The position numbers were made by a program, and so were the translations under genes. Positions 3-791 of a stretch of DNA of 34,258 nucleotides are shown one piece after another. The notes beneath the pieces were generated by a model. That model worked only from the letters and a program-made list of their open reading frames with translations. It ran no database searches and had not been told where the DNA came from. Origin of the DNA: a bacterium (GTDB taxonomy: Bacteria; Thermosulfidibacterota; Thermosulfidibacteria; Thermosulfidibacterales; Thermosulfidibacteraceae); contig JALVKL010000125.1 in the NCBI GenBank assembly GCA_027033775.1, forward strand, positions 1 through 34,258, written 5' to 3'. The first letter of the stretch is position 1. Every line of letters begins with the position of its first letter.

Positions 3-791
3 CCGGGAGGAGTTCCATATATATTCATCTTTAGAAGTAAATACGGAAAACATGATGGCTCCAATGTTCCTACAGATACGCACTTTGTGAAACTTGTTGC
101 TGACTGGACTCCTGTTCCTAAAATTGTCACCAGCTTGAATCTCAGCTACAAATATCAGGACAATGACGATTCAGATTGGGAAGCAGACATTTATGTTGCT
201 GGCTTGAACCTATTCTTCATGCCCATGGAAAAGCTTACCTTTAACATAGGCGGTAATTACGAGTATGACACCTATGAAGCCAGGATGTGTGTTGATCTTT
301 TTGGTGGCTGAGGCGGTCACAGCTTTGTGAGGCAGGTTGCCTCACTCTGTGACAAGGTTGATTATGATGTGAAGAATGTTGTTCTTTACGCCAATTTGGA
401 CTTCCAGCCACTGGACAATTTGAAGCTTTTTGCCGACTTTAGCTACACATGGTCTAAAGCGGATGCGGACAATCCCCACTTTGGCAATCCTTGGAATGTG
501 ATAACCCTTTACGGTGGCACTCCTGATGATCCTCATCCCAGTTATAAGCCAGGTTATGATCCTTGGTTTGCTATAACCTATACCAGCAGCATGGACGATA
601 TGTCCGACTGGTATGATTTGGAGTATGAGGTCTATGAGGTCTCTGGTGGGTTTGAGTGGAACATATGGAAGAATCTTTCCGTCAAAACTGTGGCCACATT
701 TAGAAAATTCAATGATGATGAGGAGTACCTCTACGAGGACAACGACGGAAAGATCTATATCCTGAATGCCAGCCTTATTTGGAAATTCTAA
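3..791 (+). CDS. Outer-membrane beta-barrel protein (5' end outside window), read through an in-frame TGA at 309-311; candidate selenoprotein
   Basis: ORFs 87-311 and 327-791 are in the same frame, and the frame is open from base 3. They are separated only by TGA 309-311 (ggt ggc TGA ggc ggt cac). Alternating amphipathic beta-strands with short turns (PMEKL, PLDNL) occur on both sides. The protein ends ...NASLIWKF*, with the C-terminal Phe typical of outer-membrane barrels. A SECIS-like hairpin lies immediately downstream of the TGA. Confidence 0.75.
316..353 (+). promoter_or_regulatory. Candidate bacterial SECIS element
   Basis: GTCACAG(316-322) pairs with CTGTGAC(347-353), 7 bp. There is an asymmetric internal loop CTTT/T. 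GTGAGGCA(327-334) pairs with TGCCTCAC(338-345), 8 bp, with apical loop GGT(335-337). The loop is 23 nt after the in-frame TGA. The apex GCAGGTTGC resembles GCAGGTCTGC of E. coli fdhF SECIS. Confidence 0.75.

Follow-up and report, generated by a model that had tools for sequence, protein, structure and literature searches.

The gene that enters at the left edge of the window (the whole 34,258-nucleotide stretch of DNA analyzed here) almost certainly encodes a real selenium-containing outer-membrane barrel. Sequence evidence identifies it as a barrel of the GSU2204 family in which the UGA at 309–311 is decoded as selenocysteine (Sec) via a hairpin at 316–353, and places it second in a two-gene operon, behind a decaheme cytochrome of the GSU2203 family (DmsE/MtrA-like). 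The best explanation overall, which we consider highly probable, is that the protein is the Sec-containing barrel of an MtrAB-like conduit with the decaheme as its partner; the barrel and the ten-heme cytochrome probably carry electrons across the outer membrane. The features concerned are as follows.

3–791, + strand: gene for a GSU2204-family outer-membrane barrel, MtrB/PioB-like, C-terminal third; 262 residues including Sec; stop TAA at 789–791; 5′ end beyond the window
309–311, + strand: UGA in frame, decoded as selenocysteine within LFGG-U-GGHSF; order relatives with the gene, paralogues and four further families share the TGA column
316–353, + strand: bacterial SECIS hairpin; outer helix 316–322/347–353, inner helix 327–334/338–345
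335–337, + strand: SECIS apical loop GGU, beginning 24 nt after the UGA; GGY in aligned relatives
814–844, + strand: stem-loop with a T-run, read from the sequence as probably the intrinsic terminator that closes the decaheme-barrel operon

Translation of 3–791 yields 102 residues, the TGA at 309–311, 159 residues and the TAA at 789–791, with LIWKF at the C-terminal end. The TGA is the sole interruption of the frame from 3 to 788, as an earlier note on this DNA had described, and the clean terminator it mentioned is visible as the stem-loop at 814–844; directly 3′ of this terminator lies a tmRNA gene (893–1246, tag ADAEYALAA). While the frame that the note placed at 3–791 is real, the gene is truncated there by the start of the window, the full protein being about 780 aa long. 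Its N-terminus lies on contig C153 of the same assembly (L029, 1296–3506). The two contigs share the window's first 659 bases apart from 9 differences, and the TGA is present in both, so that it is not a one-off sequencing error of the kind that the note had raised as a possible refutation. Eight of the nine differences fall at third codon positions, three of these eight 3′ of the TGA, and none falls inside the SECIS hairpin; both halves of the gene thus appear to be under protein-level selection.

These observations bear on two other ways of reading the TGA. Standard ORF calling splits the gene into 3–311 and 327–791, as had been anticipated, and selA, selB and selC are missing from this assembly, both of which would suit a true stop in a decaying pseudogene or in a gene split into two proteins. 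We regard this as very improbable, given that the same TGA recurs in every one of the seven order relatives that have the gene as well as in other families, that strain differences 3′ of it are mostly third-position, that the GTG start at 327 sits within the hairpin, and that the second fragment forms the C-terminal portion of one barrel. Decoding as Trp or Gly, through code reassignment or natural suppression, draws on the flanking glycines (FGG-U-GG), which make Gly compositionally plausible. Against it, stop usage among the 35 main ORFs of the window (TAA 21, TAG 7, TGA 7) shows that UGA is not generally reassigned, which the earlier note had judged unlikely; where the motif is otherwise intact, neither Gly nor Trp occupies the column in any homologue; and the covarying hairpin and Sec machinery would be left with no role, making this reading extremely improbable.

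Conservation of the column supports decoding as Sec. Exactly one in-frame TGA is present in each of the seven order relatives having the gene (7/7), within the motif LFGG-U-GGHSF or [LF]FAG-U-AGHSF; the barrel gene had no match in the same-genus genome G001 (71% complete). A paralogue with FFNG-U-AG occurs both in this genome and in G003. In this genome, it belongs to a further decaheme-barrel pair, likewise carrying a UGA in frame (L030, 684–4324, contig C96) and preceded by a small ORF (180–497) that resembles an ArsR-type regulator by eye. A domain-wide sample of 386 genomes contained five further genes with TGA at the column, from four families (G104, with two copies, G242, G283 and G344), where the relationship of relatives outside the order is graded only as "same domain"; GMC4_bin_23 holds another such homologue, and a second domain-wide search, centred on G104, added no genomes. 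Among the homologues examined, none has Cys at the Sec column, although in so small a sample the absence of Cys is unproven, and none has Gly or Trp there in an otherwise intact motif. The comparison proposed in the earlier note therefore returned TGA in order relatives, paralogues and four other families, zero Cys, and in an otherwise intact motif neither the Trp nor the Gly that it had named as contrary evidence.

Homologues lacking Sec were seen once in GMC4_bin_23 and, as distant members, in G251, G293 and G283, and in these the whole motif is gone. GMC4_bin_23 combines both forms in one genome: a non-Sec homologue with its decaheme lies about 2 kb upstream of a Sec paralogue (L045, 6407–8734 and 10506–11192). 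The open frame of the Sec copy is only 229 aa, which may reflect a frameshift or an assembly error. The order genomes L038–L044 bear conflicting labels (Aquificota, Thermodesulfobacteriota, bacterium). A pattern scan of genome contigs, by a pattern other than the Sec motif, found eight loci.

Bacterial Sec insertion depends on a UGA and a SECIS hairpin just downstream of it, with a small loop whose first positions include G. In this gene, the RNA that follows the UGA and GGCG can fold as GUCACAG-CUUU-GUGAGGCA-GGU-UGCCUCAC-U-CUGUGAC, so that the downstream hairpin that had been supposed is present at 316–353, with compensatory changes in close homologues. At −22.4 kcal/mol, it is the most stable of the 248 in-frame 45-nt stretches in 3–791. 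In the SECIS alignment of 11 sequences, 83% of cells are paired, rising to 94% in the inner helix, where four of the eight pairs are changed on both sides (for example columns 23/33, G-C in six sequences and C-G in five). The covariation score was 0.320 compared to 0.142 in shuffles, none of 500 shuffles scored as high, and sliding the pairing by 1–3 columns dropped it to 0.06–0.10. Synonymous recoding of 312–356 with the protein held fixed never reached −22.4 kcal/mol (0 of 5000, mean −8.8); the same control gave 0–83 of 1000 for the ten other sequences, the weakest being this genome's paralogue. The dinucleotide-shuffle z-score for 309–371 was −2.24. Short GC-rich stems are possible by eye in G104, G242, G283 and G344, where some computed folds are weaker. 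The Rfam model SECIS_1 (RF00031) matched neither this genome nor 250–450; it matched no control genome either and is thus uninformative.

The Sec machinery is partly present in this assembly and more fully so in relatives. The selD of this genome is itself Sec-type, with one TGA (MVRASGUGSK, 351.5 bits), and the hairpin following that UGA is not unusually stable; the gene (L015, contig C146) is clustered with genes named by eye as YedF-like, class V aminotransferase, NMN adenylyltransferase-like and CinA-like. Neither selA nor selB was found in this assembly (90.6% complete, 259 contigs), while they are adjacent in seven of eight relatives; as the same-genus genome has both, their absence is most simply a matter of assembly incompleteness. 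ARAGORN found tRNA-Sec in six relatives, all in other families of the order. No tRNA-Sec was found in the three genomes of Thermosulfidibacteraceae (G000, G001 and G002; best weak matches L105–L109) by either of two models, the second built from the six true tRNA-Sec genes, and selA-selB is present in two of these three. With the genomes 71–91% complete, gaps are a possible reason, but three misses are odd and unexplained. Candidates set aside in this genome were the first SelB match (L001), which is EF-Tu, and tRNA-Sec candidates that proved to be tRNA-Ser, Leu, Pro or Arg, His, Gly and Trp. Of the sel gene check suggested in the earlier note, then, a Sec-type selD was borne out here and selA-selB and tRNA-Sec were borne out in relatives, but selA, selB and selC were not found in this assembly. 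Taken with the conserved TGA column and the covarying hairpin, the machinery of the lineage supports the note's reading of the UGA as Sec.

Profile searches assign the barrel to a named family. Against NF041027 (cut-off 350), which NCBIfam names "GSU2204 family CXXCH-containing (seleno)protein", the 620 N-terminal residues encoded on C153 reach 485.5 bits and the homologue in G005 reaches 505.4 bits. The model ends at profile position 580, just before Sec; the window piece by itself aligns to positions 490–580, and C-terminal fragments past the UGA are unrecognized as GSU2204 family by either of two profile libraries. Pfam PF11854 (MtrB_PioB; 30.7 bits, cut-off 23) is passed by the G005 homologue and by this genome's paralogue, while against TIGR03509 (MtrB_PioB, cut-off 240) the G005 homologue reached 14.8 bits and this genome's own protein was not matched. 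The barrel carries a single CXXCH (GKCTPCHIVG), with equivalents in relatives. Directly upstream on C153 lies a decaheme gene with ten CXXCH motifs and a lipoprotein-like N-terminus, which scores 434 bits against NF041028 (GSU2203 family, DmsE/MtrA-like, OmcK in G. sulfurreducens; cut-off 325), with no difference from that family seen, and 241.2 bits against TIGR03508 (DmsE family, cut-off 192.2). The decaheme-barrel pair also occurs in order relatives whose contigs extend upstream and in G104 and G242, and no MtrC-like surface cytochrome gene immediately adjoins it. In G006, two 12-CXXCH cytochromes are encoded consecutively some 7 kb downstream of the barrel (L036, 17290–19044).

Structure modeling agrees with this assignment. 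A model of the G005 homologue built from 21 sequences (pLDDT 75.3, pTM 0.71) superseded an earlier model from 9 sequences (pLDDT 49.9), and its best PDB match is Shewanella MtrB (6r2q chain B; E = 1.3e-22, TM 0.74 by target length). Together with the NF041027 score and the PF11854 pass, this match substantiates the earlier description of an outer-membrane beta-barrel. Both proteins are large outer-membrane barrels encoded with a decaheme cytochrome; they share 13% identity in the structural alignment, and the family here differs in having one CXXCH, Sec in most members seen and no adjoining MtrC-like gene. In the G005 model, Sec 617 falls in a low-confidence loop (615–624) between the long strands 592–614 and 625–651, and the CXXCH (224–228) is at the tip of the hairpin 200–220/228–251. 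With the C-terminus taken to lie in the periplasm, a backward count of strands would place both loops on the extracellular side, a count that assumes a standard barrel and runs over a model whose stretch 121–168 is of low confidence.

MtrB forms a sheath around the decaheme MtrA in the Mtr complex (PMC7198977), and by analogy the decaheme here would thread the barrel as MtrA threads MtrB, letting electrons cross the outer membrane. The G. sulfurreducens genes GSU2203/GSU2204 are upregulated 2.68-/2.36-fold with hematite and 1.65-/1.53-fold with magnetite (PMC4070692), a response consistent with a part in extracellular electron transfer, though not a test of it. As no surface cytochrome gene lies beside the pair, Sec and CXXCH may join in the exit step: on their predicted surface loops, the two could form or tune an electron exit that would stand in for a separate MtrC-like surface cytochrome, with minerals, sulfur compounds and selenium oxyanions as candidate substrates. 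The surface CXXCH possibly bears heme. The stronger proposal, that the extracellular Sec takes part directly in the electron exit and with CXXCH replaces the extracellular cytochrome, so that the barrel would serve as a redox-active terminal reductase as well as an insulating sheath, we put forward as speculative and rather unlikely.

A different division of labor would make Sec and CXXCH a surface thiol/selenol redox enzyme, for instance for disulfide or oxyanion reduction, to which the decaheme only supplies electrons, in place of a general conduit. CXXC and Sec are typical redox pairs, and the loss of the whole motif in non-Sec homologues, with no Cys swap, is what a dispensable added activity would produce; one such homologue (L045) also retains its decaheme neighbor. 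The motif, however, is CXXCH, which is heme-binding, in all full-length Sec members, and fold and operon agree with MtrAB. We therefore consider a surface enzyme of this kind possible, if on balance unlikely, and favor the Sec-containing conduit barrel.

The earlier note was right about the selenoprotein but not in its hint of novelty. The family, already named a (seleno)protein in NF041027, appears in two lists of prokaryotic selenoproteins, as "MtrB/PioB family outer membrane beta-barrel protein" in 2022 (PMC9312934) and as NF041027, "GSU2204 family CXXCH-containing protein (MtrB/PioB family...)", in 2026 (PMC13188914). The main text of the GOS 2008 and ISME 2016 papers cited in these reviews does not include an outer-membrane or MtrB family, and a literature search found no experimental study of the GSU2204 family as a selenoprotein or of Sec in any member. 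The protein described here fits the same model, has the same CXXCH and meets the model's end at Sec, so that nothing essential sets it apart from NF041027, but it comes from a little-sampled lineage and its genome has a second, paralogous Sec copy. The ExtKL multiheme (seleno)protein (NF040886) is likewise a predicted selenoprotein tied to Geobacter outer-membrane conduits; ExtKL, however, is a cytochrome and not a barrel, and the decaheme here reaches only 15.7 bits against its cut-off of 250. What is new is the lineage, the covarying SECIS, the Sec paralogue in the genome, the lack of Cys variants in our sample and the predicted surface position of Sec.

Because automatic annotation cuts genes at the UGA, the C-terminal part of such conduits is easily missed. 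MtrB-type barrels are commonly viewed as passive insulation around a heme wire; the retention of Sec and CXXCH across distant lineages, with Cys never taking the place of Sec in the sample, implies that the barrel itself takes part in the chemistry.
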